64,000 nucleotides of DNA. Origin: Alligator mississippiensis (lineage: Eukaryota > Chordata > Crocodylia > Alligatoridae). The position numbers and the translations under genes were made by a program. The stretch covers positions 219,325,978 to 219,389,977 of the forward strand of contig NC_081828.1 in the NCBI RefSeq assembly GCF_030867095.1, in the 5' to 3' direction. Below are positions 7 through 29,800 of this stretch, one piece after another. The number at the start of each line of letters is the position of its first letter. Positions within the stretch are counted from its first letter, which is position 1. Below the pieces are notes generated by a model. It saw only the letters and a program-made list of their open reading frames with translations. It was not told the origin of the DNA and searched no databases.

Positions 7-1433
7 TCAGAGGTGGGCTGCGGGCTGGGCCAGCGGATCCGGCAGGGCCCCCCAGCCACCACCGCCGCCGTCCCTCGGCAGGGGCCTGGAGTGGGTGCGC
101 TCGTGGCGGAGGAGGTGGGTCTTGCGGCTGAAGCTCTTCCCGCACTGGGTGCAGATGTAAGGCCGCAGCCCCGTGTGCACGGCCTGGTGGCGCGCCAGGT
201 TGGTCTTGGAGCTGAAGTGCTTGCCGCACTGGGCGCAGCCATGCGGGCGCATGCCGGTGTGCACGGCCTGGTGCCGCACCAGGTGGGACTTCCGGCTGAA
301 GCCGCGGCCGCACTGCTCGCAGGCGTGTGGGCGCTGCTCGGCGTGGGCCTTGGCGTGGGCCATGAGGTTGGGGCGGGAGCTGAAGCAGCGGCCACACTGT
401 GAGCAAGTGTAGGGGCGCTCGCCCGTGTGCACACGGCGGTGCCGCACCAGGTGCTGGGGGTGGGCGAAGCCGCGGCCGCAATCGGGGCAGGTGAAGGGGC
501 GCTCGCCGGTGTGGCTGCGTTGGTGGATGGTGAGGTTGGGCTTGTGGCTGAAGCTCTTCTCGCAGTAGGCACAGGCGTAGGGCTTGAGCCCCATGTGGCC
601 CCGCAGGTGGGCCGTCAGGTGCCGCTTGTCGCTGAAGCCGCGCCCGCACTCGGCGCACACGAACGGCCGCCCCTCTGCGTGCAGCCGCTGGTGCGACGTC
701 AGGTTCTTCTTCCAGCCGAAGCTCTTCCCGCACTGCTGGCACGTGAAGGGCTTCGGCCCCACCGCGGGAGCCACTGTGGCTGCCTCCACGTCTGGCTCCA
801 CCTTCGGCGGACACGGGGCGTCCGGCTCCCCCGGCGCCGCGTGCAGCTGCTGGTGCCGCGCCAGGTGCTGCTTGTGGGTGAAGCGGCGCCCGCAGCAGTC
901 GCAGGGGAAGGGGCGCTCGCCGGTGTGCACGCGCTGGTGCCGCAGCAGGTGGGTCTTCTTGCGGAAGCACCTCCCGCAGTGGTCGCAGGGAAAGGGGCGT
1001 TCGCCTGTGTGCACGCGCTGGTGCGAGCCCAGGTGGATCTTCTGGCTGAAGCGGCGCCCGCAGCGGTCGCAAGGGTAGGGGCGCTCGCCCGTGTGCACAC
1101 GCTGGTGCCGGGTCAGGTGTGCCTTCTTGCCGAAGCCCTTGCCGCACTGTGCGCAGGGGAAGGGGCGTGGGCTGCCGTCCCCGAAGCGCCGCTCGTGGGC
1201 CGGGTAGCCGTACGGCGTCTCGCTCGGCAGCTGCCACGGCGGCAGAGCCAAGCCAGGCAGGTCACTGTAGCTGGTGTACTCCTCCTCTTCCGGCTTGCAC
1301 GTGCTCAGGTAGCTCTGATCCGTCTGTGGCGGCTGGAAGCCACCCTGCAGCTGCCCTGACAGCAGCGCCTCGGCATTGGGGGGCGTGGGCCATTCGTCCT
1401 CCTCCACCTTCACCTTCCTGACGAGCCAGTCGC
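7..1433 (-). CDS. ZNF467: ZNF467 terminal exon with 12 C2H2 fingers
   Basis: The exon begins after the acceptor CCGACCCCGCAG and reads GC GAC TGG (GDWLVRKVKVEEDE). An upstream in-frame ATG at 1506 exists, but it lies in the intron before a good acceptor and its codons do not resemble the family. Fingers 1-4 read FPCAQC, YPCDRC, FPCDHC and FPCDCC, each ending HxxxH. Fingers 5-12 begin FTCQQC, FVCAEC, YACAYC, FTCPDC, YTCSQC, HACEQC, HGCAQC and YICTQC. Just before finger 1, the stretch PYGYPAHERRF looks like a finger that lost its two cysteines. The last 23 residues are Gly/Pro-rich. The polyadenylation site lies outside the window. Confidence 0.92.
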
Positions 1434-4349
1434 CTGCGGGGTCGGGGGAGAGGCAGACAGAGAGGTGGGATGCGTGAGGAGAGCAGTGAGGAGGACCTGC
1501 TACCATGGTGGTTCTTCACCTTATTGCACCCCGTTTTTGGACTAAGGAGAAATATTGGGACATTGGTGCTCAGTCTCTTCCCCAGGCACTGCCTGGTCCG
1601 TCTGCAGGCCAGATCTGGCCAGGATCTTGATCGGGTGCCCAAGGTGGGCACAACCCCATCTGGCCATGCGGGGGGAGAGCTGCAGACCAGGTCAGATCCA
1701 GCCACGCAGGCAGAGGGGGCATGGGAATTTAGCAGAGGGGGAGGGAGGGTGGCAGCATTACAATCCTACAGTCAGAGACGACGAGGGTTGAAGGGACCTC
1801 GGGAGGTCACATCTAGCCCAACCCTTGCTCAAAGCAAGACCAGCCCCAGATACATCATCCCAGCCAAGGCTTTTCTAGCTGGGTCTTAAACATCTCCAAG
1901 GATGGACAGTCCACCACCTCTCTGGGGAGCCTCTTCCAGTGCTTTACCACTCTCCTAGTGAGAATTTTTTTCCTAATATCCAACCTCAACTTCCCTTGAC
2001 GCAGCTTGAGCCCATTGCTCCTTGTCCTGCCATCTGCCCCCACTAAGATCAGCCCAGCTCCATCCTCTTTGCAGCCCCCCTGCAAGGAGGTGAAGGCTGC
2101 TATTCAATCCCCCTCGGTCTTCTCGTCTCCAGACTAAATCAACCCATTTCCCTCAGTCTCTCCTCACCAGTCCTGTCTCACAGCCCCCAACCATTTTCAT
2201 TGCCCTCCGCTGGACTCTCTCCAACATGTCCACATCCTTTCTGCAGTGGGGACCCACAGCTGGACACAGGACTCCAGATGTGGCCTCCCCAGTGCTGAAT
2301 AGGGGGGAAGAATCACTGCCTCGATCTGCTGGCAATGTTAACCACCTTGCTGCCAAATTACCCAACCCACAGGCCAGAGGCCACGGCTCGGCAGGCTGCA
2401 TTCAGCTGGACTTGAGCAATTCTTCTACAGAAGAAGTTCAGAGACCGTGGCAGGACAGAAGAGCTGTGAGCCCCTGAAGGCCTATTTGAATCTCTGGGTT
2501 GAACTTACAGACCACATGCAGGTGTTTGCAGACCTCACAGCACAGACCCCTGTGGTTCCCCTGAAAGGATCTTGCAACGCCCTGGTTGGGAATCGCTGCA
2601 TTTTCATCACAGACACCAGCTAGAAACCCCGCAGCTCTGGCCCCTCTGCTAGCAAAGGACAATGATGACGGGGTGCAGCAACATGGGTATGGGGGTGGGT
2701 GGGTCATGTAAGGGCCACAGCCCACCAGGCATGGGCTCCGTGGGTGGAAAGAAGCAGCCCCTTTAACCATCTGCAAGGAGGGGCTAGGGCTAAATGGGCC
2801 ATGGAGGCTGAGCTTGCATTTCCCCACCAAACAGAGATGTCGGTGGAGATGCAGGCAAGCTGGCTCCAGCGCCTCTGCCCACATTTGGTTGGTGGAAGGG
2901 GAGGGTCTCACCTGAGCAGCCATTTCCCTCTTCTGGACCCCTCTGTTGCCCACCACGCTGCTGCTGCTGCTCTTGCTCCCCCAGTGGAAAAACCTCAGGC
3001 TTGGGGACAACGGACCCTGTCCAAAGGAAAAGAGGGAATAAAGCCCAGGCTTTCCCCAGACTTCAGGAAGCATCTCAACCAGATGGACACCTGTCTGCGT
3101 GTCCATCTGTCTATCCCGGTTTTTATCTGTGGTATCGGGGCAGCAAACCGTGTGAACCAGGAGATTTCCAGCTGCCCGCAGCTGCCGCAGAATCAGGCAG
3201 CGGGAGAAGCAACCTCTCTGGCACTCGGGACCCAAGCTGTGATGGTGTTTTTGGTCAACACCAGTACATCTAACTCCCTGCAGACCCCTGAGCCCCCAGG
3301 TCCAGGGACCAGGCTGCTGCTTTCTGTGCTACTGTCAGCTCTCCAGCGAGTGCATTTGCAGCCTGTGGGGTGGAGGAGGGGTCCTGTCCCCGGGGGAAAA
3401 GGATGCATCTGCCTGGCCAAGCATAGCTGAGGCCAAATCTCCCAGGCAGCCGCTGCTGCTGGGAGGGGAGATCCAGTTTGGCAACAGAGCAAGGACCATG
3501 CTGCAGTTCATCGCACCGATGGCAGGCTGGGACCTGACTCCGGGCATTTCCCAGACCTCCCCGCTCCACCCTGGGCATCGCCCCAAGACACGAGCCCTGC
3601 AATCTCACTGACCTGGGTTGACGCAGCCTGGGGCCTCCTGTTCCTCAGCCTGCCCCTGGGCTTGGACACACGGCTCTTCAGCGTGTTCGATCTGGGGGAC
3701 CAACTCTGGCTTGGTGTTGGGGGACCCTGAGCAACACAGAGACTGGCCCTGATGCACATGCATGCTGCCCTGCTGCCTCTGCCTGCATGTGCTGGGGGGG
3801 GGCAACAGCAGTACAGACAGCACCCCGGTCCTCCAAGGTGCTCCTGTGCTGGCCTCCCTCCCTCCAAGGGGACTTTGTGCCTGCTGAGCTAATGCTCCCC
3901 CAGGACGGTGCCATGCTCTGGTCTAGGAGAGACGCTCTCTGCCCGGGACCCAGACCAAAGGCCTGTCTGTTGCAAGGCAGGTCACATCAGGGTGCTAATT
4001 TCCTTGCCTGGGCCAGATTCCCACTCAAGTCCCCCCATGCACCCCCCTCCCACCTCCCCAAATGCCAGCCAAAGCAGCGGGGCTTTGTGGCTGCACAGAA
4101 GCTGCCGTGACCCATCCCAGTGCAAGGCGCTGCCTCAGCCCAGATGTGCTGTCACCTGGAATGGGCAGGGCTTGTTCTCCGAGATGGTGGACCCTCAATT
4201 CCCTGGGGGGCTTAGGTGGAGACGGCGCTGGGTGACAGCCCCCAGGGCTTGGGGCGCACAGACACAGGCACCATCAGCATGGGGGTACATGCAGGAGGAG
4301 AGGACAGTGCTTTACCCAGGGCCATCAGGACATCGTAATTCTCCCGCAT
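7..4349 (-). CDS. ZNF467: ZNF467-like C2H2 zinc-finger protein, three coding exons
   Basis: The coding sequence joins 4349-4316, 3726-3613 and 1433-7 on the minus strand (1,575 nt, 524 residues), with stop TGA at 9-7. Both junctions are phase 1: CTGG|GTAAAG to TTGCTCAG|GG, and CCCAG|GTCAGT to CCCGCAG|GC. The protein opens with MRENYDVLMALG, runs into a KRAB-B-like stretch (KPELVPQIEHAEEP), then an acidic segment with a VKVEED sumoylation-type site (about residues 56-61). Twelve C2H2 fingers follow: four from about residue 141, a 30-residue spacer, then eight with TGERP-type linkers. The finger order, the VRKVKVE motif and the position next to SSPO match mammalian ZNF467 (595 aa in human, from memory), a nuclear DNA-binding protein. 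Identity is strong; DNA target and regulatory role are not visible. A relative such as another 7q36-type zinc-finger gene is the main alternative. Confidence 0.85.
1434..3612 (-). other. ZNF467 intron between the KRAB-B-like and zinc-finger exons
   Basis: This is a 2.2-kb intron by splice-site placement. It contains an inverted CR1 fragment (1765-2400). From 2400 to 3612 I see no conserved coding potential; the open frames there have no recognisable motif. Confidence 0.6.
1765..2400 (-). mobile_element. CR1 LINE 3' fragment
   Basis: Read on the minus strand, this carries the C-terminal coding remnant of a CR1 reverse transcriptase ([18 protein letters not shown], then LPREVV) and the typical CR1 tail, seen on the plus strand as GAAGGGACCTCGGGAGGTCA. 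It is 5' truncated with a broken frame. Confidence 0.8.
3613..3726 (-). CDS. ZNF467: ZNF467 KRAB-B-like exon
   Basis: This 114-nt exon (phase 1 in, phase 1 out) is flanked by acceptor TGTGTTGCTCAG and donor CCCAG|GTCAGTGAG on the minus strand. It encodes SPNTKPELVPQIEHAEEP, matching the KRAB-B pattern (SKPELI.QLE.GEEPW), then a Gln/Glu-rich linker. Joined to its neighbours it gives ...MALG-SPNTKPEL... and ...CVNPG-DWLVRKV..., the junction layout I recall for human ZNF467. It was found from splice sites and frame, not from a long open frame. Confidence 0.82.
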
Positions 4350-4431
4350 GGCGAGGCTGTATTGCTCCCACGAATCTTTGCCGCGGCTCGGAGAGGAAAC
4401 AGGCTGCCACGTCCTCACGCCTCGCTGGGAC
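4316..4431 (-). CDS. ZNF467: ZNF467 first coding exon, remnant of a KRAB-A exon
   Basis: The exon runs from acceptor GTTGTTGCAG (exon begins at 4431) to donor CTGG|GTAAAG after 4316. Translation probably starts at ATG 4349-4347, giving MRENYDVLMALG, which is the C-terminal end of a KRAB-A box (consensus MRENYE.L.SLG), and ends in the phase-1 position typical of KRAB-A exons. The part 4431-4350 is then 5' UTR. In a different frame it reads REDVAACFLSE, like the start of KRAB-A (EDVAVYFSEEEW), so the two halves are out of frame. Confidence 0.75.
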
Positions 4432-5410
4432 CTGCAACAACGAGCATCACGGTGCTAAGAACAAGCCGGGGCTGAGCCGCAGCAGCGCGGTCCTGAGGAC
4501 CCCAGGAACATCCCGCGGGGTGATCTGGGATCGTCGCAGATCCCTGCACTCCCCAGGGAGCTGCAGCCCAGTGCTGCGGCACCCCAGCACGAGGTCCACA
4601 ATGGCTCAGACTCTGAAAGTGAGCTGCACCATCAGCAGCCTCGTGCGAGCAATGCTGGGGTTTAGCTCCATTTGGTTCAGGGCTCGTTTTTGAGCGTGCT
4701 ATAGGATTTTGTGTGCACCAGCCAGGATGTCACAGCCTACTGGGGTGCCTTGAGATCCTTTCGAGGGTGCCACGGGGTGTCACACAACATTATCACTGTG
4801 AGGTGTGCGTATTTTTCTGTAATCAAAAAACTAATGGGAACTAAGAGCTGGCTTTTCCCGAGGGGGCCTGGGGTCTATCGAGGAGCATTTTAATAGGTAC
4901 AGATGTGATGGGAGTGCTCGGTAGGAAGTTGCCAGGAGGTTTTGGCAGCCAGGCAGGGCACAGCCAAGACCTGGAAAGAGGTGGGACAAGATGGTGGGGG
5001 AAGCACACTGGTCGGATGTTTCTGCCAATGGAGCTAACACTGGTGGGTTTGAAAGTGCCATCTTTAGGTTTCAGAGTCAACACCCCTGAAACAGCCTGAC
5101 GAATGGGATGACATGCACCTCCCAGGCCTACTGGCTTGGCCAAGGAAACTGTGGGCTGATGCCCATGAGAAACCTCTGGATGCCCCCTTAATCAGAGAGG
5201 TTCCTAATGAGGGAACAACTCAATACAAAGGACAAATAACAAGAAAACAGGAGAAGTCGCCGGTCCTAACAAGGGAGCTGCAAGGGGACACAGAGCAGGG
5301 CACTTGCTGCCCCCAAATGAGGTGAGGGAGCCGATGGACACCGCTCAGGGCTTGTCTGGCCAGAGCCAGGAGTCTGCCTGGAAAGTCCCAGGACTTGGTG
5401 GAGCTAGGGA
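4432..5410. other. Region upstream of the ZNF467 coding start, no gene seen
   Basis: About 1 kb between the KRAB remnant exon and the minisatellite. No exon with convincing splice sites and family similarity was found on either strand. It is probably the first ZNF467 intron if the CpG island is its promoter. Confidence 0.4.
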
Positions 5411-5835: not shown

Positions 5836-6540
5836 GTGCCGCAGGCAGAGCCCCGCAGGTCCCGGGGAGGTGCTGGGGGCCCCAGCCCGGGGCTCCCCCA
5901 CCCCAGGGGCAGCACGCCCTGCCTCCCGCCCCATCCCCCAAGCCCTGCCCCTTCCCCTCCCCCTGCTCCATGCCTTCCTCTTCCTGCGCGCCGCCCCCAG
6001 CCCCCTCCCCGCAGCCTGCCGCCCCCGCCCGCGCAGTCCCCGCCCCATGCACCCGCCCTGGCCCCCCGCCCCCCCCGTGCACCCCTGCATGCACCCCCGT
6101 GCACCCCTTGCAAAGGCGCCGAGCGGCGGCGGAGCACCCCGGGGGTGCGGGGCCGACCCCCCGCCCTGGCCCGCCCGCGCCCGCGCCCCCCGGCCATCCC
6201 CGCGGCCTCGGGCCGGGCCCTACCTGCGCGGCCGGGGCGCGGGCGGCGCGCGCCCTCGCTGCACCGCCGGGCTGGCCCCGCCTGCCCGACACCCGAGCCG
6301 GGGGCGGGGAGAGCCCCTGCGGGGTGGGGCTGGTGCTCCGGGCTTCCCCGGCCCCTGCAGCTCGGGGGAGGCGGGCGGGGGTCCGCATGCTGCTCGCAGG
6401 GAGACCCGAGCGCGGACACCTCCCGGGGTCCGGCAGTGGCCGGGGTTGCCCCGGGTGGGACCTCCCGGGTGAAACCCTCCTGGCCTGGGAGCGATTTGCA
6501 GCAGAAGGGACAGGGCGAGGAGCAAGCGGGGCTGAGGTCG
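5836..6540 (-). promoter_or_regulatory. ZNF467: CpG island, probable ZNF467 promoter and noncoding first exon
   Basis: The stretch is extremely C+G-rich with many CpG dinucleotides and GC-box-like CCCCGCCC runs, unlike its flanks. On the minus strand, GGCCGCGCAG|GTAGGGCC ends at 6224 and is a strong splice donor, so a noncoding exon could lie just upstream (about 6224-6400) and splice to the exon at 4431. That link is inferred from orientation and distance; transcript data would settle it. Confidence 0.5.
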
Positions 6541-11812: not shown

Positions 11813-14800
11813 GTAAGTCCCCACATCCAGCCACATTGGGAATGGCTGCCCGGGGTCCTCCATGTGCTTTGATCCCTGCTGCGCCCCTCACCATGTCCCT
11901 CTGCCCATCTGCATTGGCGCTTCAGGTGTTGCCGGTGCCTTTGCAACACTGGCTCCAAACCCCCCCCCAGGACTCTCTCAGCAGGGACGATGCTGAAGCC
12001 TCTTCACGTCCCATTTTCCTCTGCCTGGTGGAGGGCAGGAGGCCGGGCCCTCGGCTTCATGGTGTCTCCCCACAGCTGGGGAGATGCAATTAACTTCCAA
12101 AAAGGGCATCTGACCCCTTCCCATGTTTCAGGGGGTCTTCAGGGCACCTGGCTGGGAGTCACAGCCCTACCTAGCCCCTTCCCGGTCTTCCCCAGTGCCC
12201 TCTGCCGGGGTGGGAGTGGGTCTGGGTGGGGTGAAGGAACAGAGGTGACTGCAAAGTGGACCGGTCCCTTCCTGCCTCTGGTGCAGAGGGGGCTGAGCCT
12301 GAGCGCAGGGGCAAGACCCTCTCACCAGGACCCTGTGGAGTTGGTGCCAGCAGGCACCTTGGTTGTGGGGCACCCCTTTCCAGCTGGGTTCTGGGTTGGG
12401 GCATGCTTAAAAGTTGGCTGAGGGAGCAGGGACCGGTGCACGGATCGGGACTGGGGCTGACGCGGGGTGACACGAGTGTTGCGGCTGCAGGCGCTGGTGC
12501 GAGCGCACGGTGCAGGTGACGGAGGAGGAGGTGCTGAGCCCCCGGCGTGAGAACGTGGTGCCCTGCGCCAGCGTGTACCAGTACAACCTGGCGGGCTGGC
12601 GCCTCGACCAGGAGAGGATGCGCCAGGCTTACGGCGGGGACTTGGGCATCGCCCACTACTACGCCCAGTCCGGGCCCTCCGACTCCATGTGCTACATCTA
12701 CAAGTGAGTGCGGCTGGCGGGGAGACGTGGTGGGTGCAGGAGATGTCAATAGCATGGGGGGAGGAGGACAGAGACGATCCCCCTCCGTGACTCTCCCCCC
12801 TGCCCTGCAGACCCCAGGACACGCGGCCCCTGGTGTGGAACCGCACGGTGCGAGCCTGCTGCGAGGGATGGAGTGGACCCCGCTGCACGGAGGGTGAGGG
12901 GAGCACCAGGGCTGGGGGCACTGGGAGGCCAGGGCTGCTCCTAAACCCGCTGCCCGGTGCTCCTGGCATTGCCATGGGGGCAGGTCTGATGCTTTGGCAT
13001 CTGCCCATCACTGAGCCGGGCAGCCGGGGGATCAGAGCTGGTCCCGGGCCCGGTGACCAGCATTGCTCCCCACAGGTGAGGGCTTGCTGGGCCACTGCTT
13101 CTCCACCTGGCAGTGCCAGGACTTCCCGAGCGCCCTCAACCTGTCGCTGATGAGCATGGCCGAGTGTTGCAGCCAGCCCTGGGGTCACAGCTGGAGGAAC
13201 ACGTCCTCCGCGCTCTGCTTCAGCTGCGCCTACTTGCCCCTCACAGGTGGGTGATGAGCCCCGGCAGTGGGTCTGGGGGGCAGGTGGGGCATACAGTGGT
13301 GGATACCACCTCCTATCTAGCCCTAGGGATATTGGGGTGGCATGGTATCCCGAGGAAGCGATATCCCCACTGCCCCCCTCCAGCAGTGGGAAGCCCCCAC
13401 GGACCCTAGTGTGGCGTGACGAGTCTCCACATTCCCCTGCAGGAGACCTGCCAGGACCCTTCCTGCTCCGGCCGTCTCCCCCCACCGCCCTGCTGGGCCT
13501 GTCTCGGGGCGGCCAGCGCCTCTTCGCCACCTGCGTGACGTGGGCCGGCGTCCAGTACCGCAGCTTCGATGGGAAGCACTTCCGCTTCCATGGGGGCTGC
13601 ACCTACAGCCTGGCCGCTGCCTCCGACGGCACCTGGGCTGTCTACATCTCCGCCGGGGCCAGGGGTTGCACCCCACCGGGGCGCTGCACGCGGGTGAGGA
13701 GACCCAGCGAGGAGAGGGGAAGAGAGGATGGAGAGCGAGGGGGGAATGAGGAGGAAGAGAAGCAAAAACAGAGTGGATATGCAGGGGAGTTGGGGGCAGA
13801 GAGGAGGAGCAGCGTGGTGAGGCTGAAGGGGCGAGGAGGAACCCAAAGTACCCAGCTTTGCACTTGCTCCGTGGTCCCCAGAGCCCTGTGAGTCCCTGGA
13901 GCCCAGGGGAGAATTGCAAATAAAATGGTCCCTCTTTATACATGCGTGGCCACACCTTGACCACAGGTCTGGTCCTTGCACCTCCAAAAGGAGAGAGAAG
14001 AGCTAGCAAAGGTGCAGAGAAGGGCAACAAGGATGCTGAGGGCTATGGAGGGGCTTCCCTAGGAGGAGAGACTAAGGTCAGGTTAGAAAAGAGACGCTTG
14101 AGCGGGTTCAGGAGAAAGGCTTACAACACACTAAAAGGGGATGAGAAAATCCCTAGGGATTTATGACTGGCTGTCTCTCTCCAGACAAGAGCGAGGGGTC
14201 ATGGTATGGAAGGAGCAGGTAGGAAGCTTAAAACTAATACAAGGCAGTTCTCTGTCACCCATGAAGGTGTGAGGCTCATGCTTCCCCCCGGATGTGGTGG
14301 GAGCTGAGAGCTCGGCAGGTCCACCAAGGGATTGGATGCGTTTTTGGAGGAAAGGGGCATCAGGAGCTCTGGGGCAGGGAGTGAGGGGCACGGGCTTTGT
14401 ATCAGACCTGCCTGGGCCCTCAATGTTGGAGGCTGCAAAGAGAGAGGATCAGGGGAAAACCCTGCTCAGCTCCAATCACTCTCCCTTCAGCCATACTCCC
14501 TGTCCCAGTATGAATCATGGGCTAGACAGACCTAGGGTCTGACCCTTTGCCCCTCTGCAGGCTCTTCGCATGATGTTCGGGCTGGACCTGGTTGTGGCCG
14601 AAGGCCGGAGCATCTTGGTGAATGGGGCCACAGTGCCGGAGGGGCAGCCGTACCTGCAGAACGGTGAGGGGGTCCTGAGCCCTGCCCGAGGGGGGCACTG
14701 AGCTGGGGGGAGCCACACCATCTGCACCCTGTGCTTCAGGGCTGCAGTCCCCTTGCTGCACCCATTGGGGTATCACAACATTTATTGCGCAGTCCCCTTG

Positions 14801-17800
14801 ATGCACCCATCGGGGCACTGCAAAATTTATTGTGCGATTAACCTGCCCTGGCCTGGGTGAGCAAAGGGTTAGAAGCTGATGGAAAGGTCCCAGTTTGGAT
14901 GGGAGAGGGGCAGTTGCTTGCACTGGAGAAGGGTCTGTCAGGGCCAGGGGGCACCTGGGAGGAGCTGCCTAGACCCTGAGGGAGGCTCTTCGGAGGGCAC
15001 AGGCCATCCAAGCCAGGCAAGGTCAGGATTGGGCCCTGTCACCTTAAGGTGAGGGTTGGGAGCTCCACGTTGCTGAGCCCCCCACCCTGTGCTCTGCCCC
15101 ACAGGGATCAGCATCCGCTGGCTTGGGGACTTCGTCTTCGTGGAGAGCGGCCTGGGTGTGCGAGTGAAGTCGGATGGGCGTGCCACCGTCTATGTCACGG
15201 TTGGTGCTGAGCTGCGGGGCACCACGCGTGGGCTCTGCGGGCGCTACAATGACGACCCCACAGGTACTCGCAGCCCTGCCGGGTGGCTGCCCTTCTCACC
15301 GCTGAGCCCCACGGGAACAACATCCTCCCCTGGGGCCCTATAGACATCACAGTCTCCTCTGGGGCCCCACAGACAAGCTTGGAGACAAGGAGACTAGATT
15401 GTCCGTGCCTGCCTGTGGACAGCACGTGTGCAAGTGGACATGCATGGAGATTAGTCATGCAGACAGCCAGCATGTACACACATGGGTTAGGGGCTTTCTG
15501 CCTGGTCCCGGAGGATGGGTGTGCACATGCACATGTAGTCAGGCATACACACAGACATCCTTGCTCATGTGTGAGCACACAAAACATGCACGTGTGTTCA
15601 CATTTCACACAGGTATGCACATACACACGTGAGCATGCAAAATGCATGCCCATGTAAGGTCTCACAGTCATGCAGGCATTGTGTGTGTCAGCATGTAGAA
15701 CATATACGTTGACACGCATACAAGGTGCATGCACATGTGTGTACATGCAGGCATGCGTGCACCCACCTGTGTGAGCACATAGAACGTGCATGTGTTGACA
15801 CCGATACAAGATGCATGCACCTGTGTGCACTCTCACACAGGCATGCTTGCACACACATGTGAGCATACAGAACATGCACATGTGTGTGCACGCGCACATT
15901 AAAGCCAGCACCAGAACCGCCCTCCGAGGTGCGAGAGGCGGAGGCAGTCAGCTGGCAGCCGTGGCTGGCTGCGGGGGGCACGGAGACAGAGGCCGGCAGG
16001 GCACAGAACAGAGGACATTCCTGCCAGCCCCTGACCCACGTGTCTCTCCCCAGCAGAGATGCTTCCCCGTCCCCACCATGCCCAGCCTCTCTCCTTTGCT
16101 TGCAGATGATTTCCTGCGTGTCGGAGGGGACGTGACCACGCTCGCTGCCAGCTTTGGGAACTCTTGGAGGATCCCGGAGGCCGGCACGGAGGTATCGGGT
16201 CCCCAGAGCCAGGCTGCCCTGCTGCAGCAACGTCTCACCCGGCTCTGTGGCCTCAGTTGGGCAGGGGGCCCCATGATGCCCTTCGCCCAGGCCAGGGGGC
16301 CCTGCTACACATTCAAATGAAAGCCAGATAGCAACCAGCTATAAAGTTGTGACATGTTTTCAAGAACTAACTGTAGCGGGTTGGCTCTTTTTATAGCTGC
16401 CTAATCATTTTTCTGGTGTGACCATTACTTTGCACATGTAGCTTGTCTAAATTTATTGCAGAATTAACCAGTTAATTGTCTGATTTTTATTTTGCACGTG
16501 TGGCTGGCCTAAGTGCATTGCACAATGACCAGTTAATTGTATGGTAATTACTTTGCCAGCATGCCTGGTCTAAATGTATTGCGCAATGACCAATTAATTG
16601 TATGATAATTACTTTGCACATGTGGCTATTCTAAATGTATTGTGGGATGACCAATTAATTGTGTGGTAATTACTTTGCACGTGTGACCGATCTAAATGCA
16701 TTGTGCGATTCACCCGTGAATCGCACAATGTCTGTAACATGTAGCGGGGGCCTGTGAGGGATACCTCCAGGGAACAGCTGCAGGCTGCCTGGTGTGCCAG
16801 AAGGGGGTGCTCTCCCTTGTGCCATGCCCAGGGTGGTTGCAGGAGGCTCCATGGGGGGCTGCCTCCCTGCCCCTGCCTGGCCGTGCGGGGTGGGCACTGC
16901 GGTACCTAACGCTGACGGGCTCCTCCTGCTGCAGCAGCCCTGCGAGGACGCGGCGGAGGTCAGACACAGCTGCGATGAAACAGGAGACGGCGCCGTGCGG
17001 CGGGAGGCTGAGGCCATGTGCCAAAAGCTGCTGGCCAATCCTTTCAGCCAGTGCCACTCCGAGGTCAGAAGCCGAGGTTACCATGTCTGGCAGGCCTGGT
17101 TGGTGGCCCCCTGCCCTCTGCGTTGTGCCCGACTCACTGACTCAGCTTCTGCCCTGGCAGGTGGACCCAGGTGGCTTCTACGATGCCTGTGTGTACGCGT
17201 ACTGCCAGGAGCCGGGGGCTGGGGCTGCGCTGCCTGGTGCCGTCTGCGAGACCTTCGCCAGCTACACCCGGGACTGTGCCCAGCACCATATCTACGTGGA
17301 CTGGAGGCGGCCTGGTTTCTGCGGTAGGTGCCAGCGCTCACCCTCTCCAGCGCTCACACCTACCCCCACCCCCACCTTGCACAGCTGTGCTTTCACCCCC
17401 AGCTGCTATGCTCACTGCAGAGCTGTGCACAGACCCTACAGGGGTGCAGGCCCCCCCCAGCCTCCCTCCCCCCACAGCCCACACTGACCTGCACTCACAC
17501 CCACAGTCACAGCCACACACTCTCACTCATTTGCACACACACAGATGTACTCCACAGTCGTGCTCACATGTGTGTGCACACACAGTCACACACATATGCT
17601 CTCATTCACTCTCTCTTTCTCACACATGCACACACAGTCACACTGACATGCTCGCTCTCTCTCCCTCTCACACACCCTGCCACACATAGGGGCACTCTGT
17701 CCTGCCTGTGGGTCACCCCAGAGCTGCCCTGCCCTGCCCCACCCCGCCCTGGTTTGGCCTGAGGCAGTGTTAGTGCCGGGCCCGAGGGTGGGATAAGGGG

Positions 17801-20800
17801 CTTTCTCCTGCTGCCAGCAAGGGTCCTGGCTGGGGTGGGTCTCCCTGAGGCTGCCCCGGCTGCAGAGGGCCGAGCAGCACAGAGGTGGCTGAAGCACCGT
17901 GGTGCCCATGTCCCCGCAGAGAAGCAGTGCGACGGGGGCAAGCAGTACTCGGACTGTGTGTCCTCGTGCCCAGCCAGCTGTGCGGCTGCAGGCGCTGCCG
18001 AGGATGGGCACTGCCGGGATGAGTGCGTGAGCGGTTGTGAGTGCCCGCCCAGTCTGTACCTGGAGCAGGGCGCCTGCGTACCTGAGGCTGCCTGCCCCTG
18101 CTACCACCGCCGCCAGCGCTACTCCCCGGGGGACGCCATCCAGCAGCGCTGCAACCAGTGGTGAGTCTGGCTGAGCCCTGTGGCTACCCGTCCACTCACC
18201 CCGTCCTGCCCGGCAGGACCCGCACGGCCTTGCCCAGAATCGTTTGTGGTGGGTTCGTGGAGGCTGCCCATTCCCAGAATCCTTTGTGGTGTGTCCCTGG
18301 CTGCAGTCCACTCCCAGAATTCTTTGTGGCAGGTCGCTGGAGGCTGTCCATTCCCAGAATCCTTTGTGGTGGGTCCCTGGCTGCTGTCCAGTCCCAGAAT
18401 CCTTTGTGGTGGGACTTTGGCTGCTGCCAAGGGGCCCCCAAGCAGCTCTGGTTGTGGAGGGGCACCAATGGCTGCCATGCTCTGGGGACAATGCCACAGG
18501 CTCCAGGGGAGACACCCCATAAGCTTGTTGGAGGGGGGCCACTTCCCATGGATGCTGCCTATGCCCTGCTATGGACCAGGGGTGCTGAGTGCCCAACCCC
18601 AGGGGTCCTGAGTTCCGGCAGTGCCAACTCCCTGCATGGGGTCTGTGCAAGGCAGGGGGTCCTGGGTTTAGGAGCCTCCTCCCACCCCTGCAGCACGTGC
18701 CAGGGCGGGCACTGGCTCTGCTCCCAGTACAAGTGTGCGGCCGAGTGCGCCGTGCTGGGCAACCCGCACTATGTGACCTTCGACCGCAAGCGCTACTCCT
18801 TCCACGGGGCCTGCGAGTACATCCTGGTGCAGGTGAGGGGCTGGGGGCATCCCCCTGGGTCTGGGGGTAGATGCTGGGTGGAGCTTCCCAATGTCTCAGG
18901 GGTTCCCCTGCATTTGGGGTGATCAGCTTCTGGGGGGCTACATGGGGTGCCCTGTGTCTCAGTGCCCACTGACCGGGTTGGGGTGTGGGATTTGCTGCCC
19001 GGCAGGACTTTGTGGATGGGAAGCTGCGGATCACGGCTGAGAGCACGACTTGCGGGAGCTCTGGAACCGTGAGCTGCTTACGGGCGCTCACCGTGACGGC
19101 ACACAAGACCTCCGCACAGCTGCGCACCACAGGTGACCCTGGCACATGGAGAGGGAAGGCGTTTTGGAAGCGCTTAATGGGATTGCAGGCTGGGCTGGTG
19201 TGAGAGGCAGGGGGCACGTGGCTCTCCCTTCTAGGGGCAACCGGCTCCAGAGCGCAGAGCCCAGCATCCTTTCCCTCCATGGGTTACCAGCCCCGGGGTG
19301 GTGACGTGGCTGGCTCGGACAGATGGGGAAGGGGGCAGGGGAATGGGACCCCCCTCTGTTCTCTCTGCAGGTTGCTTCCTTATTTCATGCCTCCTCCTGC
19401 TGTCCCTCCTGCAGGAGACGTGGTGGTGAATGGGCACGAGGTGGACTTGCCCTTTGCAGGCACCGACCTGACCATCCGGAGAGCCTCGGCCTCTTTCCTG
19501 CTGCTCCAGGCTTTTGGAGCCCACGTGCTGTGGGGGCTGGAGTTCCCTGCTGCCTACATCACCCTCCAACCCGCCTTTGCCCACAAGGTGAGGCCTTGGG
19601 GTCCCTTCCCACATCTCCCCAGGTCCTGGCATGGACCCTGGGGAGGCTCGGGGAGAGGCCATGGCTGGGGTCCCCTCCCAGGAGGTGCAGGGCTGTGGCC
19701 GTCCCCGCTTCCTGATCCCCGTCTTGACTCCCGCAGGTGCGTGGGCTGTGCGGCACGTACAACTGGAACCAGCAGGATGAGTTCACAACACCAGCCGGGG
19801 ATGTGGAGGCCAGCGCGGCTGCCTTCGCCCACAAGTTCCGGGTGTCGGGTGAGTGCCCCGTGCCCAGCGCCGCCACCTTCGACCCCTGCAGCACCTACGC
19901 CCAGCACCGCGCCTTCGCCGAGGCCGCCTGTGCCGTGCTGCATGGCCCTGCCTTCCAGGTATGCACCAGGGCTGGGGACCAGAGGCCGTGGGGATGGGGG
20001 ATGCTGCAGGGCAAGGTGGAGCCAGAGGGCATTGTCTGGTGCAGGGTGTGCGCATGTGTGTGTGTCAACACATGTACATTCTGTGTGCTCACATGTGAGG
20101 GCACGTGTTTTGTGTGCTTGTGTGTGTAAATGCATGTCTGCACACACGTACGTTTTGCGTGCTCACCTTTGCTTACACGCATGCCTATGTGAGTGTGCCC
20201 TTGTATGTGTCTGTTTTGTGTGCTCAGGTATGTGTACATGCATGTCTGCTTGAGTGTTCACCCATGTGAATGTCTTGTGTACTATGTATGTATATAGATT
20301 CATAGATGTTAGGGGTCGGAAGGGACCTCAATAGATCATCGAGTTCGACCCCGATGTATATGTACGTCTATATGTTCACACATGCATGTTTTGTGTGCTC
20401 ACGTGTGTACATGGATGTCTGTGGACACGTGCACATCTGTGCATGTGTTTTGTGTGCTCACATGCATGTGCGCATGCCTGACTGCATATGCATGTGTGCC
20501 CACCCATCCTCCCGTGTTGTCTGGTTTTGGGGCCAGTTAGGAATGCCCCAACTCTTATGCCTGTGTATGCTTGTTCTGGTTGTTCATATGACTAACTTCC
20601 ACGTGTGTCCATTTGCACACGTCCTGTCCACAGCCCAGCACAGATGTGGGCCTTGGTTCCAATCTGGGCCCCCAGCCAGTGGGTACTGGGGCCTTTCCAG
20701 ATGGGCACCCTCCCGGGGTCCATGCAGGGAGGCCTATGGCTGGGTCGGCTCTGAGCCCCTCCATGCCCCCCCCACCTTCTTGCCCCTCACAGCCCTGCCA

Positions 20801-23800
20801 CCACCTGGTGGACCGGGAGCCCTTCCACCAGCTCTGCCTCTATGACGTCTGTGGCTGCCCCGCCGACAAGGACTGTTTGTGCGGAGCCGTGGCTGCCTAT
20901 GCCCGGCAGTGTGCCCAGGAGGGGGCCCCGGTGCCATGGAGGAACCAGACCTTCTGCGGTGAGTGCGCCTCCCCCAGGACTAGATGGGACCTCTGCAGCC
21001 CTACGTCTCTGGGCGCTTGTACACGATGCGTGTTCATAGATTCATAGATGTTAGGGTCGGAAGGGACCTCAATAGATCATCAAGTCCGACCCCCTGCATA
21101 AGCAGGAAAGAGTGCTGGGTCTAGATGACCCCAGCTAGATACTCGTCTAACCTCCTCTTGAAGACCCCCAGGGTAGGGGAGAGCACCACCTCCCTTGGGA
21201 GCCCGTTCCAGACCTTGGCCACTCGAACTGTGAAGAAGTTCTTCCTAATGTCCAGTCTAAATCTGCTCTCTGCTAGCTTGTGGCCATTGTTTCTTGTAAC
21301 CCCCGGGGGCGCCTTGGTGAATAAATCCTCACCAATTCCCTTCTGTGCCCCCGTGATGAACTTATAGGCAGCCACAAGGTCGCCTCTCAACCTTCTCTTG
21401 CGGAGGCTGAAAAGATCCAGTTTCTCTAGTCTCTCCTCATAGGGCTTGGTCTGCAGGCCCTTGACCATATGAGTTGCCCTTCTCTGGTCCCTCTCCAGGT
21501 TATCCGCATCCCTCTTGAAGTGCGGCGCCCAGAATTGCACGCAGTACTCCAACTGCGGTCTGACCAACGCCCGATAGAGGGGAAGTATCACCTCCCTGGA
21601 CCTATTTGTCATGCATCTGCTGATGCACGATAAAGTGCCATTGGCTTTTCTGATGGCTTCGTCACACTGCCGGCTCATGTTCATCTTGGAGTCCACTAGG
21701 ACTCCAAGATCCCTTTCCACCTCCGTGCCACCCAGCAGGTCATTCCCTAGGCTGTAGGTGTGCTGGACATTTTTCCTCCCTAGGTGCAGCACTTTGCATT
21801 TCTCCTTGTTGAACTGCATCCTGTTGTTTTCTGCCCACTTGTCCAACCTATCCAGGTCTGCTTGCAGCTGTTCCCTGCCCTCCAGCGTGTCCACATCTCC
21901 CCATAGCTTTGTGTCATCTGCAAACTTGGACAGAGTACATTTGACTCCCTCGTCCAAGTCGCTGATGAAGACATTAAAGAGTATCGGTCCAAGGACCGAA
22001 CCCTGCGGGACCCCACTGCCCACACCCTTCCAGGTCGAGACCGACCCATCCACCACGACTCTTTGGGTGCGACCCTCTAGCCAATTTTTGTTGTTTAAAT
22101 CCACATTACAAAACGATACTAAAAATCACCGTTTTGCTAGGTTAGCCTTGCTTGAAACTATACATTGATGTTTGTTTATGCGTGACTAAGCGGAGGCCCC
22201 TGCCCTGTGCCCCCAGGTGTGCAGTGCGGTGGGGGCCAGGTGTACCAGGAGTGCAGCGCTCCCTGCCGGAAGACCTGCTCTGACCTGCACCTGGATGGGG
22301 CCGGTGCCTGCCAGGAGCTGGACGTCTGCGTGGCTGGGTGCAACTGCCCTGAGGGGCTGGTGCTGGATGAGGGCGGGCAGTGCATCCCGCCTGCCATGTG
22401 CCCCTGCCTGCATGGGGATGAGACCCACCCACCGGGCAGCAGGATCCGCCGGAGCTGCAATACCTGGTGTGTAGACAGGGAACTGTGGTGGGGCCACACC
22501 AGCCACGCCACGTGGCTCATGCCTCTGGCACGTGGGGTCACTATGCTGGGGTCATGGGCAGCAGTGGGGAGGCGTGTGAGCCGCCCACAGCCCAGCCAGC
22601 CTCCAGGCCAGAGGTGATGGGTACCGGCTTGGGGAATCGTAACAGGTGCCGGCTCCAAACCAAGCCCAAGCTGGGGGCTGATGGGGCAGAGCAATGAGTT
22701 CTCAGTCCCAGAGCCCCACTGGCCCCATGGGTCTGCAGGGGAAGGGGCTATGTGCAGGGCTGGGGGCTCTGGGACTTGCACTTCCCCTTTGGGATGGCAG
22801 CGAGTGCAAGGGCTGTGCATGTCCTGGGGCAAGTGAATCTGGGCCCTGCAATAAGGCCTGCTCAGACCCACTGGACTGGGCTTCGTCGCCTCCATGGCAG
22901 AGGGGTGGTGGCGGATGGGGGCTGGTCATGCTCCCGCTGCGGGCGAAGTGGTGGTAGGAGATGTTTGATGAAATCACCCTACGGCCTGTTTCCCACGCTG
23001 CCACAGGATAGGTTGATTTCATTGCATGTCTCTGCCACGTGACGCCGGCTCTCACCCCGCACGGGGGCTCCCGGGGGTCTGGGCTGGTAGGAGGCGGGTG
23101 CTTCTTTCCAGCGGGGAAGCCCACCCCAGCAGTGGAGCTTCTTCCTCCATCCAGTCCCTCATGCCCTGGAGTCCCATAACCAAGCAAGGAGCAAGACTCC
23201 AGATGCCACATGGGCACGTGGGCCATGATCCCTCATACAATCAGGGCATCTCATCCCACCTGGTCTTCCCCACTCCTAGTGCAGACGCTGGCCCAGGGGC
23301 GCTCCCACGCCTATGCCCACATCTGGTCTCTCTTGCAGTGTCTGCATGGACGGAGCCTGGAATTGCACGGATGCCAGCTGCCCCGAGGCCGTGAGCTGCC
23401 CTGGGGAGCTGGTCTATGCCTTCGGGGGCTGCTTGCACACCTGCGACAGCCCGGAGGGCAACCTGAGCTGCTCTGGCCTCACCGAAGGCTGCGTTTGTCC
23501 CCCTGGCACTGTCTTCCTGGTGAGCCCCAACTCCTGCTCCTGCAGCTCAGCTGGGGGTGGGACCCCATGGGGTAGGCGGCGGCTTGCACTGCTCTGGGCT
23601 GGGCTCAGGGGGTGCTGGGAACATTGCTGACCCATTTGTTCCAAGGGTGGGCTGGGAACAGAGGGTCAGCAGACCGGCCACTCCCCTCTGGATGCCTGGG
23701 TTCACCCCTGCAGTGGAGCAAGCTGTTATACACCCCAGCTGCTGTATCCCAACTGGGATCAGCCCCTGCCACCTCACAGAGACCCTCTTGTCCTGTCTTC

Positions 23801-26800
23801 CCTCCTCCGCCCCCAGAACGAGCGCTGCGTCTCCCCGGAAGAGTGTCCCTGCCAACACAACGGCCGGCTGTACCAGCCCAATGACACCATCATCAAGGAC
23901 TGCAACACCTGGTAAGGACTGTGGCACCCCCTCCAGCATGGGGGTGCCTTCGAGGGGCAAGGGCTTGGGCTGGCGTGTTTGGAGCTCAGCCCCTGTCCCC
24001 ACAGCGTGTGCCGGAGCCGGCGCTGGCAGTGCAGTAGCCACCGGTGTGCAGGGACCTGCATGGCCTCGGGGGACCCCCACTACATCACTTTCGACGGGCG
24101 GGCCTTCTCCTTCCTGGGCGACTGCGAGTATGTGCTGGTGCGCGAGCACGGCGGCCTCTTCTCTGTCACTGTCGAGAACGTGCCCTGCGGCACCAGTGGC
24201 ATCACCTGCACCAAATCTGTGGTCGTGGAGATCGGCAACACGGTTGTTCACCTCCTGAGAGGTGAGAGGCCGTGGGGAAGAGAGCTGAGGACGGTGCCCC
24301 CCGGTTGAGAGGCGAGGGGCTGATTTGCTAGAGTCACAGAAGTTTAGAGCTAAAAGGGACCTCGAGAGATCATCGGGTCCAGCCCCCCGCCCAGCTCTTG
24401 CCAGGAAAGATCCTGCATAAAGTTTAAAAAACACGACAAACTAGACAAAAAATAAGAACATCAGTGGACCAGACTGGGTCACACCACAGGTCCATCTTGC
24501 CCAGTTTTTCTGCCTGATGTCCCCCGTCCATGCACTAGCTATAAACCATTGACCTTTACTCCTGTCCCTGTTTTGGTATCATTTGTCCCAAAGAATCAGT
24601 GACATGTCCCTAGTTGTGTTGGTTTTAAGCTGCCGTTTCATGGTGACCGCTTGTTTGTCAGATGAGAGAGTCAATAATTAATCCCTAGTGACTTTCTCTT
24701 TACCTTGTAATATGTTGTAAATCCTTCTCCTGTCCTGCCTCAAGCAACTCTTCTCTAACCTGACCAGGCCTGGCCTGGTTAGTCTCTCCTGATAGGGAAG
24801 CCCCTCCATAGCCTTCATCATCCTTGTTGCCCTTCTCTGGACCCAACCAAAAGGTGTCATTTTATTAGTCTTGTAGCCATTAGAGTTGAATGTACATCTC
24901 TTATTCAGATTAATTCACCAAAATGTAGCCTTCTTCAGCACCTTGACAGGGCATGCACCCCTTTGCAGTCAGTCGTCGCCAGTCAGTATGACTCCTGAGT
25001 TAGTATTACCACACTTGAGTTAATGTTTTTAACTAGAATTAAATGCAGTCTGCAGGGCTGTGAGATACCAGAGAGTCATTACCAAGACTGGCTAACAGAC
25101 AGCTGACTGCAGAAGAAAGGATAGCTTAATTAAGTTTGGCAAGCCGGTCAATTGACCGGTCAGATATTGTCAATTGACTGCATTTTTTTAGACCGGTTAA
25201 AGAGGATAGCAATTTTAACAAAAAACCCTACATTTTTTGGTAGTTTTCTTGACAGAAAAAAATATTTTTTTAAATTGTTTTTTGATGCATTTCTTACAGG
25301 AAAATTTGTGCTTTTTCTGTATCATTTGGACATATTAGCAATAATATTCTATATTTTTTTTTCTGTATTATTTGGACCTAGTGGCAATTTTTTTTACAAT
25401 TTTTGACCGATATCTGACCAGTCCATTGACCAAACCTGATTGACAGATCCAATGTCCAACCCTAAGCTTAATTCATAGAACAAAAAGACTATTAAAAAGG
25501 AGAGAAGTGGTTAACACCTGCGAAGTGGAGAGTGTAGCAGGAATCGGGTCAATGGCAATGAGCCGTGTACTCCGTCAGTGCTGCCTGACTAGAAATGCTG
25601 CTGCCACTGCTAGGCTTTACGTTTGGGGTGATGCAGGGATCAAAGCAGAGTGCGAGTGCACCGCTGCACCCCCTGGATCTGCCCTCGGCGGTGGGGAGCC
25701 AGCATTCCCAGCTGGGTGGGGTGGTCCCCATAATGCATGGTAGGGCTCCGAGCTGCGCTGGGCGTTTTCACACATGTCATTTTCCCCCACCACTCCCAGG
25801 AAGGGCTGTGACGGTGAACGGAGCCTCTGTGCGGCCGCCCAAGGTTTATGGTGGGAACGGCCTGACCCTGGAGCGCGCCGGCCTCTTCCTCATCCTCATC
25901 TCCCAGCTGGGGCTCACAGTGCTCTGGGATGGAGGTGAAGCTCACTTTGCTGGTGGGGGTGCAGCAGGGGGGACTGGGGCAGGGCCCTGCAGGCGTAGGG
26001 GCAGCTCCAGGGTGGAGACACCCCCCTGGCATCCCTCCTGAGGTTGCTGGGCCTTTGCTGCTGGAGGACTGGCTGGGCAGGGACGGGTCCCCCCAAGACA
26101 TGGCTTTGAGATGCCAGGGCACCTGTGGGGGCTGTCTCCAGTGCTTCCTGCACCCAGCAGCGCCTGAGCCGGCTGTGTTCCTCCTCCTCCTCCCCTGCAC
26201 AGGCACCCGGGTGTACGTGAAGCTGGACCCCGTCTTCCAGGGCCGCGTGGCAGGGCTGTGCGGGAACTTCGATGGGGACACGGAGAATGACTTCACTAGC
26301 CAGCAGGGCATGGTGGAGCCCACGGCCGACCTGTTCGGCAACTCCTGGCGTGTCAGCCTCCTGTGCCCCGAGGTCAACGAAGGGGACTTTGAGCACCCCT
26401 GCACCGTACGTGTGCTTGCGGGGGGCCAGGGGGAGGTGGGCAAGGCCTGGCTGGGGGGGAGGGCTGGGGGGCTTCATCCAGCTTGGAAACTGTTGTGTTC
26501 AGAAAAGAGACACTCAAGGGAGGACAGAAGGGTTTACAACATAAAGTAAACTAGGAGTTTATTACTGACTATCTCTCACCAGACTAATATGGACTGGGGG
26601 GGTTTGCCTTCCTCTGCAAGCAGGGCACGGCCTCTGCATGCGATCTCTTGAGTGTATATTGATATAATTGAGGGGTCACTGCATGAAACGAGCAAGCCAA
26701 CAGTTTAAAACCAACACGAGGCAGTTCTTTGCCACCCAGTGCAGCATTAACAGCTGGAGCTCAGTGCCACCAGACGTGAGTTCGCCAGGGCTTGGACACG

Positions 26801-29800
26801 TGCTTGGAGGAAAGGGGCATCAGGAACTATTAGGAGTGAGGGACACGGGCTCCGCATCAGCCCTGCCTGGACCCTCAATGCTGGAGGCTGCAAGGGAGAG
26901 AGGAACAGGGGAAAACCCTGCTCAGACCCGGTCACTCTCCCTTCTGCCTCCTGGTACAACGCAGGAAACAGGGCAACTAAGGTCCTAGGGTTTGACCCAG
27001 TGAATACCAGTTCTCATGGTCTTATGGGCAAGGCCAGGCTGGTGGGGTGGGAGCTAGGGGCTGGGGCTGGATATGACAGCCCGGTCCTGGTTCGGGTTGT
27101 GGGCTCCTCATCACTGTGCCCGGCTCCCAGGAGAACTCGCACCGCGCCACGTGGGCCCGGAAGCGCTGCAGCATCCTCCTGCAGATGCTCTTCACCCCCT
27201 GCCACGAGGAGGTGCCCTGCCAGCAGTTCTACGACTGGTGCATCTTCGACGCCTGCGGGTACGTCTTGCAGGGCAGGGGCCGGGTCTGGAGGGCGCAGGG
27301 GCTCCTGGGGGTGGGCATGACACTTCCATATTCAGCCTGCCCTGGGAGGTTGCTGGGGAGGCACCATGCTGTGCAATGCCCAGATACCAGGGTGATGGGC
27401 ACTAGAAAGCAACGGCTTCTCGGTAGCCGGGGGACGCCCCAGCCAAGCTGCCTGTGAGCAGCCAGGATCCTTGCTGTGCACAGATGATGGGGCTGGGGTC
27501 TCCCTTGTGGGTTTCCCTAGTTGGGGGAGCTGCATACCCCCCCATCACCGGCCCTGGATGACCCCCTCTCTGCCGACAGGTGCGACTCCGGGGGCGACTG
27601 CGAGTGCCTGTGCACGGCCATCGCGGCCTACGCCGAGGAGTGCAATCAACGCGGGGTCTACATCCGCTGGCGGAGCCAAGACCTGTGCCGTAAGCCCAGG
27701 GGGAGAGGGTGACAGCGGTGAGGCGGGGTGGGGAAAGGATGGCATAGTTTGCCTCCTTCAGGCTTCACTAGCCTGGCAGTGGGGCTGTGCCCCATGCATA
27801 GCCCTGTCTCTAGCCCCATCTCTCATGCCCCACATATTTTTGCCTCCCAGCTATGCAGTGTGACAACGGACTGGAGTACGAGGCCTGTGGCCCCGCCTGC
27901 CCTCAGACCTGCAAGACCTTTGGGCTGGAGTTGGCTGAGCACTGCGATGCTGTCTCCTGTGTGGAGGGCTGCTTCTGCCCTGAGGGCAAGGTCCTGCATG
28001 GTAAGGTGCCCGCATCTCTCCAGGGCATGACCCCACTGGGCACCGAATGGTGGGGTGGGGAGACGGAGCCTGGCCAGGGTACGGACCTCTTCTCCCTGGC
28101 CAAAGGAACCCCGCTTCCTTCCTCTTTTCCTCATCGATCCCCTTCTCCGCTGGCCCTTCCTTCCGGTCTCTCCTGTTCATCTGCCTCTGCAAAAGCCTGG
28201 TGCACAGCATGGGATGCAGAGCCCCACAGTGGCCTCCCCAACACTGGGGAGAGCACAGCAATTGCCCCGTGCATCCTATGTACAGCGCCTTGCTCTCACG
28301 CAGCCCTGGGAGGGCTCTGCTTCTGCAGCTGCTATCACCCTGCTGTCTCTGGCTTCATCTGCCCCATGCCCTCTCCTGCTGTCCCACGGGTCTGTCCGTG
28401 CACTGGATTTCCCCGCCCCAGCTGAGCACTTGGCACTCATCTCTGGTGCATTTCCCCATGGGGGGTAGTTCAGTGTGACCCCCTCCTCCTTTAAGCCCTG
28501 CACCTGTGGGACCTGGGTGGACAGTGACACCTGGGAAGAGTCTCCAGGGATGGTGCCAAAAAGCGGTCTTCTCTTACCCTGGCAGGCGGGAGCTGCATCG
28601 ACCCCTCTGAGTGCCCCTGCTACTGGGAGGGCACCTCGTTCCCATCAGGCACTGCAGTGAAGCAGGAGTGTAAGAACTGGTGAGCAGTGGGGGAGTCGGG
28701 GCCTAAACTCCCCAGTGAGGGGCTGTACCCACTGCCGGCCCCTCTCCCCTCACAGCAGGGGTGCGTCGCGGTATTGCCATGGGCCTGCAGGTCCGGGGCT
28801 TTGGGGGTGTCTGAGCCCTGCCCTCTGGGTCACCCCCATCAACACTCCCCCACCCCAGCCCCTGCTCCCTCCATACAGATGATCTCCCCCAGTTGCCCCT
28901 ATGCCATCAGTTATTCCCTTGTCCAGACGGGCTCCACGGAGCCTGATGCCCTCTCTCCCTGACCGCAGCACGTGCGAGGCAGGGCTGTGGCAGTGCGAGG
29001 CCCTGGCAGAGCCCTGCGCGGCCCGGCCTGGTTGCCCCGAGACAGAGTTCGCCTGCCGTGGGGGTGGGCGCTGCGTGCCAGGTGCCTGGGTGTGCGACAA
29101 CGAGGACGACTGCGGGGATGGCTCGGATGAGTTCTGCACCCTGAGCTGCGCCCCACACCAGTATCAGTGCATCAGCGGGCAGTGCGTGCCCTGGGGCTAC
29201 CGCTGCGATGGCACTGCTGACTGCCTGGACCTCTCGGACGAGCAGGGCTGCCCCCCGCCCGGGTGTGGCCAGCACGAGTTCCACTGCGCCAACGGGCGCT
29301 GCATCCCCCGTGCCCATGTCTGCGATGGCGAGCTTGACTGTGGCTTTGCTGACACGTCCGACGAGGCAGGCGAGTCCCGGGCTGGCTGTCGTGGGGCTCC
29401 TGGGGCTATCCAGGGGTGCTGGCCTGGCTAGCAAGGTGCTGGCCCTGCACACGAGGGCCCAGAGTTGGGGCAGGGAAGAGGCAACACACTGGCAGTGATG
29501 GGGATGATGGCGTAATTGCTGCCATCCTCTGTGGAGATCCTGCGGGCAGTGCCTCACTGAGAGGTCTCACGTCAGCTGTCCCTGCAGGTTGCGGCCCACC
29601 CTGCGGCACGGCGGAGTTCCGGTGCGCGGCAGGCCGGTGTGTGCCATACTTGCACCGGTGCGATGGGCACGATGACTGTGGGGACTTGAGTGATGAGCGG
29701 GAGTGTGTGTGCCCTGCTGGCCACTTCCAGTGTCCGGATGCGCTATGCTTGCCACAGCAGCAGGTGTGTGACGGAAGGAGTGACTGTCTGGCCGGCGCTG

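Follow-up and report, generated by a model that had tools for sequence, protein, structure and literature searches.

Degenerate, out-of-frame or truncated KRAB boxes are already known in other genes (PMC2443715, PMC2865497, PMC6923878). An isoform of ZNF746, which lies in the 7q36.1 cluster, resembles the gene described here as a product of the 7q36 KRAB group of zinc-finger genes in which a shortened KRAB-A is followed by KRAB-B. The isolated ZNF746 KRAB-AB is reported to show no repression (PMC6923878). ZNF746 differs in carrying a DUF3669 domain and in having another isoform with a full KRAB-A (PMC6923878), whereas here no DUF3669 scores over the cut-off in the genome and no full KRAB-A is found in the window. 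ZNF252, at 8q24.3, shares with this gene a KRAB-A coding sequence that is present yet out of frame, but has an additional stop codon ahead of its row of eleven fingers, while the finger frame here is open to its end (PMC2865497). The dog SCAN-KRAB gene LOC488318 likewise contains a degenerate KRAB exon that is recognisable in the DNA and not in the protein; it is a SCAN gene in which the change was seen in dog, whereas the gene described here likely acquired a new start inside the old box (PMC2443715). A degenerate KRAB in ZNF467 was not found described in the parts of the open-licence PubMed Central literature covered, and the main text of a study of chicken zinc fingers does not contain 'ZNF467' (PMC11476951).

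The window, meaning the whole stretch of 64,000 nucleotides that was analysed (C5:219325978-219389977 in a 2.35-Gb genome), contains a ZNF467-like gene on its minus strand, of which exon 2 (5' end 4431) to exon 3 (3' end 3613) span 3613-4431 (Table 1). Very probably this is ZNF467, a member of a KRAB cluster whose KRAB-A exon has been broken by a net loss of 11 nt and whose start now lies at the Met of the MxENY motif. The introns following exons 2, 3 and 4 are each in phase 1, and the main frame, once spliced, runs open from the 4349 Met for 559 codons across four exons. The predicted 559-residue protein consists of a KRAB-A tail, KRAB-B and 12 zinc fingers; the fingers number 12 both by pattern and as Pfam zf-C2H2 stretches, with 11 stretches in a second Pfam run. 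Splice-site scoring gives the donor of exon 2 a modest 4.1. The intron between exons 4 and 5 contains an apparent CR1-type retroelement fragment at about 1750-2330, and repeats of that type are one reason to call the genome sauropsid-like.

Table 1. Features annotated in the window (positions counted from its first letter; a slash marks the splice position).
Feature	Position	Strand	Remarks
Candidate exon 1, GC-rich stretch	6224..6388	-	donor CAG/GTAGGG at 6224; ATG at 6388
Exon 2, decayed KRAB-A	4431..4316	-	116 nt; acceptor ending TTGTTGCAG, donor beginning GTAAAG; splice-site scoring
KRAB-A N-terminal half VPARREDVAACF	4396..4431	-	frame 0, outside the main reading frame; rank 1 in score matrix
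KRAB-A C-terminal part WEQYSLAMRENYDVLMAL-G	4316..4370	-	frame +1; last 13 codons rank 1; aligned to ZNF568 KRAB box
Candidate start codon, Met of KRAB motif MxENY	4347..4349	-	context CTCGCCATGC; no earlier in-frame Met from one predicted exon 1
Exon 3, KRAB-B	3726..3613	-	114 nt, phase 1 to 1; acceptor ending GTTGCTCAG, donor beginning GTCAGT; reads SPNTKPELVPQIEHAEEPCVQ...; splice sites and KRAB-B matches
Exon 4	3016..2912	-	105 nt, phase 1 to 1; splice sites
Exon 5, linker (DWLVRKVKVEEDEWP...) and 12 C2H2 zinc fingers	10..1433	-	pattern and Pfam zf-C2H2; stop codon 9-7
SCO-spondin-like gene, head to head with the ZNF467-like gene	13154..63340	+	VWD, LDL-receptor A and TSP1 domains

The gene is situated in a KRAB cluster, comprising at least 19 loci on C5 and one more at 28 kb. 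A genome search for KRAB, in which 150 of 492 candidates were scored, placed at least 19 of 150 matches on C5, within the interval 218.06-219.86 Mb. By our boundary rule the KRAB-A exon measures 127 nt in 18 of the 19 fetched C5 loci, and these 18 exons begin with V-P-V in ten cases and with A-P-V, G-P-V, G-L-V or M-P-V in the rest. The remaining locus, L026, has a KRAB-A exon (3447-3614; C5:218060446-218060613) with a seven-codon internal repeat, VSFEDIS occurring twice. In a further locus, L013, two KRAB-A exons (C5:219845450 and 219846410) lie less than 1 kb apart on the same strand, perhaps as alternative exons of a single gene. The additional member, L042 (264-6133; C5:219296263-219302132), has a KRAB-A exon plus an open frame encoding 18 C2H2 fingers on the same strand as the ZNF467-like gene and 28 kb from its exon 2; exon and open frame are probably a single gene. 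Its KRAB-A is one residue short near EEW (FSPEW) and matches Pfam KRAB at 3.6e-15. The cluster relatives L009 (C5:219450826) and L042 (C5:219301881) are like the ZNF467-like gene in type of exon start, phase and KRAB-A sequence, and L009 also in KRAB-B, but differ in that their KRAB-A is in frame and above the Pfam cut-off (4.8e-24 for L009, KRAB-B included; 3.6e-15 for L042). The order of exons is that expected by descent, a KRAB-A exon, a KRAB-B exon of phase 1 to 1 and a zinc-finger exon, except that KRAB-A has 116 rather than 127 nt and exon 4 is interposed. With 14 of 14 candidates scored, the genome gave no DUF3669 match over the Pfam cut-off, which may be an effect of search depth, and membership of a DUF3669-KRAB subgroup is on that account not claimed; the domain is reported to occur in reptiles and birds (PMC6923878).

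Exon 2 holds the two ends of a KRAB-A exon in two reading frames. Its N-terminal half begins at the first base of the exon, matching the position of the splice site in the relatives, and the exon opens with VPARREDVAACF where L009 has VPVTFEDVAVYF. At the other end it reads MRENYDVLMAL-G, against MMENYELVASL-G in equal phase in a KRAB cluster relative. A length of 116 nt, compared with 127 nt in the cluster, corresponds to a net loss of 11 nt that removed the middle and left the halves out of frame with each other; this can be either one event or losses of 5 and 6 nt. A frameshift-aware alignment, with penalties of our choosing, gives VPARREDVAACFLSEPRQRF, a break, WEQ, a two-codon gap and then YSLAMRENYDVLMAL, so that the gap falls between the halves. 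The sequence-only reading had the N-terminal half of KRAB-A as lost. This needs correcting: the half persists in exon 2 in another frame, and it was the middle that the net loss of 11 nt took.

The out-of-frame half has decayed. It is identical to each of the 18 intact cluster exons at 5 to 7 of 12 residues, and nucleotide identity to these exons is 22-26/36 for the 5' half and 30-36/55 for the 3' half. Measured against the majority of the 18 exons, the 5' half shows changes of 1, 5 and 5 at codon positions 1, 2 and 3, where the exons' own mean is 0.67, 0.61 and 3.28; the 12 codons at the 3' end, the last 11 of them in the main frame, show 4, 2 and 6 against averages of 2.11, 2.11 and 2.94 (small counts in both cases). 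Within the limits of such small counts, the 5' half has lost its codon constraint. The EEW of the cluster exons corresponds to EPR in frame 0 of exon 2, DV sits in the other frame, and MLE has become MRE.

Likeness to KRAB was assessed by several routes. When both halves of exon 2, joined by X, and exon 3 were compared with 177,635 distinct PDB sequences, the two top matches were both to KRAB boxes, those of ZNF568 (E = 0.0038) and ZNF93 (E = 0.035). A KRAB query detects three KRAB sequences in that set, these two and 1v65, the last unmatched by the query from exons 2 and 3. A query with only the first 100 residues of the protein read in the main frame again puts ZNF568 first (E = 0.036), while ZNF93 drops to fifth place (E = 1.5), three unrelated chains coming between them. 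A score matrix was built from the 18 intact cluster exons described above, L026 being omitted (130 nt by the boundary rule). With it, the last 13 codons of exon 2 rank first among 127,918 window positions (score 27.2, next 14.0), and the first 12 codons, in frame 0, rank first among 127,924 (25.3, next 18.6). In a flank of 119 kb the matrix finds one KRAB exon, that of L042, and otherwise reaches at best 23.0 for the 5' half and 17.7 for the 3' half. The 18 intact exons score 34.6-55.2 and 28.7-43.2 for the two halves, and both halves of the ZNF467-like exon lie lower than all 18. By score alone the 5' half is only modestly above chance (25.3 against 23.0 in the flank); it is convincing because it is sited at the first base of the exon, and the case rests on halves found at both ends of one exon.

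Profile searches were less favourable, and the HMM search for KRAB that the sequence-only reading had proposed as a check went against it. None of the four KRAB pieces matched the Pfam KRAB model, even with E allowed up to 10, although the KRAB region of L009, as a positive control, gave 4.8e-24. An HMM of the 18 exons matched the 3' half weakly (E = 0.65) and, under the same E limit of 10, failed to match the 5' half. NCBIfam searches of the pieces did not find KRAB, the 559-residue protein matched only zinc-finger families in Pfam at E up to 0.01, with no complete KRAB-A (PF01352 above cut-off), and exon 2 searched as DNA against the genome matched itself only.

Exon 3 was compared, together with exon 4, with a set of 9,353 open frames of the window plus 39 fetched loci. 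All seven distinct non-self places that match exon 3 at E < 0.01 read as KRAB-B exons, both in motif and in following a KRAB-A exon, in a set that favours KRAB, its loci being mostly chosen for it. Genome-wide, the best other place is on C11 (E = 0.0145); it too reads as KRAB-B and lies 6 kb past a KRAB-A match on the same strand; the next place has E = 0.6. Judged from these matches, exon 3 is KRAB-B. Exon 4 was considered as a second KRAB-B on account of a likeness by eye (KPE), and this was dropped, its best non-self match among the window's open frames and the 39 fetched loci having E = 3.4; a relative of exon 4 was not found in that set.

Exon 2 is thereby confirmed as KRAB-A and exon 3 as KRAB-B, arranged as in the KRAB genes of this genome. 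The sequence-only reading had placed the end of KRAB-A and a KRAB-B peptide upstream of the fingers, and both are there, on the minus strand and in the exon and phase layout of KRAB genes, according to the PDB, matrix and KRAB-B matches. Its proposal of a former KRAB zinc-finger gene is likewise upheld by the ZNF568 and ZNF93 matches, the first rank of both halves and the KRAB-B identity of exon 3. A complete KRAB-A box upstream, which it had named as contrary evidence, was not found by the 18-exon HMM anywhere in the window.

Translation is predicted to start most likely at the MxENY Met (4349), because, with exon 2 spliced to the exon-1 donor predicted at 6224, the 176 in-frame codons upstream contain no Met. 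That donor scores 8.7, the best between 5 and 7 kb on the minus strand, the next reaching 5.2. Along this one predicted exon 1, the first in-frame Met is internal to KRAB-A, in agreement with the earlier proposal of a start inside the KRAB box. The ATG at 6388 shares its frame with the N-terminal half of KRAB-A; read from there, this frame is open through the predicted donor and exon 2 and stops in exon 3, past 4349. The predicted first intron contains, at 5400-5830, a degenerate short tandem repeat with units such as GCATATAAAGTGCAGGGGT (seen by eye).

The gene is likely the orthologue of ZNF467, a name based largely on a provisional human sequence set down after the window had been read. To that sequence the predicted protein has 288 identical residues (559 against 595 aa), and its N-terminus is identical at 12 of 32 residues in an ungapped comparison, as good a fit being obtained in 0 of 20,000 shuffles. 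The proposal that human ZNF467 begins at the same Met is supported to the extent of this N-terminal likeness; a start codon common with mammals, which draws largely on the provisional sequence, is a lead. Human ZNF467 lies at 7q36, head to head with its neighbour SSPO. The SCO-spondin-like gene of the window, whose head-to-head place favours the orthology, has Pfam matches in all ten open frames tested out of 19 that bear its motifs. In mammals, ZNF467 is EZI, a partner of STAT3 (PMC10171860).

The favoured explanation is that a net loss of 11 nt, in one event or as 5 and 6 nt, would have broken the KRAB-A exon of a KRAB-cluster gene and stranded the former start, together with KRAB-A's N-terminal half, in a frame not reaching the zinc fingers. 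The gene could have survived because the MxENY Met, situated past the break, is in the right frame. The new protein would begin MRENYDVLMALG, retain KRAB-B as a passenger and carry 12 zinc fingers, and would act through its fingers and linker instead of KRAB silencing. The EEW of KRAB-A is tied to TRIM28. Residues linked to TRIM28 are missing here, with DV in the other frame, EEW replaced by EPR and MLE by MRE, and KRAB-A before MRE untranslated from 4349. Recruitment of TRIM28 is probably absent, binding not being expected because the DV and EEW parts of KRAB-A are missing from the protein. A mutation in MLE abolishes both repression and TRIM28 binding, and DV is a conserved motif (PMC8835667). 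The two halves with their frames, the length of the exon, the phases, the place in a KRAB cluster and the lack of an earlier in-frame Met along one predicted exon 1 are read directly; the survival of a functional protein, the use of this start codon, the date of the break and the gene name we infer.

The mammal-reptile split took place some 300 million years ago. A single 11-nt break before that split, a date that the sequence-only reading had proposed for the loss, together with the move of the start to the MxENY Met, is a tentative proposal that falls a little short of an even chance. The break may instead be specific to this lineage, a possible course, though one that we would not favour, in which KRAB-A was lost separately here and in mammals and the same Met serves in both as the first usable one. 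Such separate losses are compatible with the KRAB-A break proposed here, and would fit an out-of-frame half that is still recognisable (22-26/36 nt, beside 30-36/55 nt for the 3' half). The second codon positions of the 5' half have, however, changed as much as the third, so the break is not very recent, and neutral change is slow in crocodilians and turtles, which in either group would permit an old break. An addition to the main reading, and an unlikely one, is an overlapping upstream frame that, if transcribed, would run from the ATG at 6388 across KRAB-A's N-terminal half and modulate how the main frame is translated; the frame is indeed open by way of the predicted exon-1 donor and exon 2 and ends in exon 3 beyond the main ATG, but codon constraint is lost within exon 2. 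It is highly improbable that the true exon is intact and misassembled: the analysis draws on a single genome, yet the 5' half shows codon decay and the change of E-E-W to E-P-R in frame 0 is not explicable by missing bases alone. That exons 2 and 3 merely resemble KRAB by chance, as the missing Pfam match and weak HMM score would allow, is barely credible against a first rank of about 128,000 at both exon ends, KRAB boxes as top PDB matches, KRAB-B readings for the matches of exon 3 and a position within a KRAB cluster.

A KRAB-A exon broken in this way has consequences for the study of the family. The KRAB census of PMC10547255 is based on the Pfam KRAB model, and Pfam-based censuses could overlook such genes because the box is divided between two frames. 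If the break is common to amniotes, ZNF467 would have its origin in the old 7q36 KRAB group and would show clearly how a KRAB repressor became a KRAB-free regulator, the causal step being still readable. If, beyond that, a single early break is true, one small deletion would have stripped ZNF467, an ancient KRAB repressor, of its silencing box, and the tail of KRAB-A would have served as its N-terminus for about 300 million years, with the dead half still visible in the exon here.
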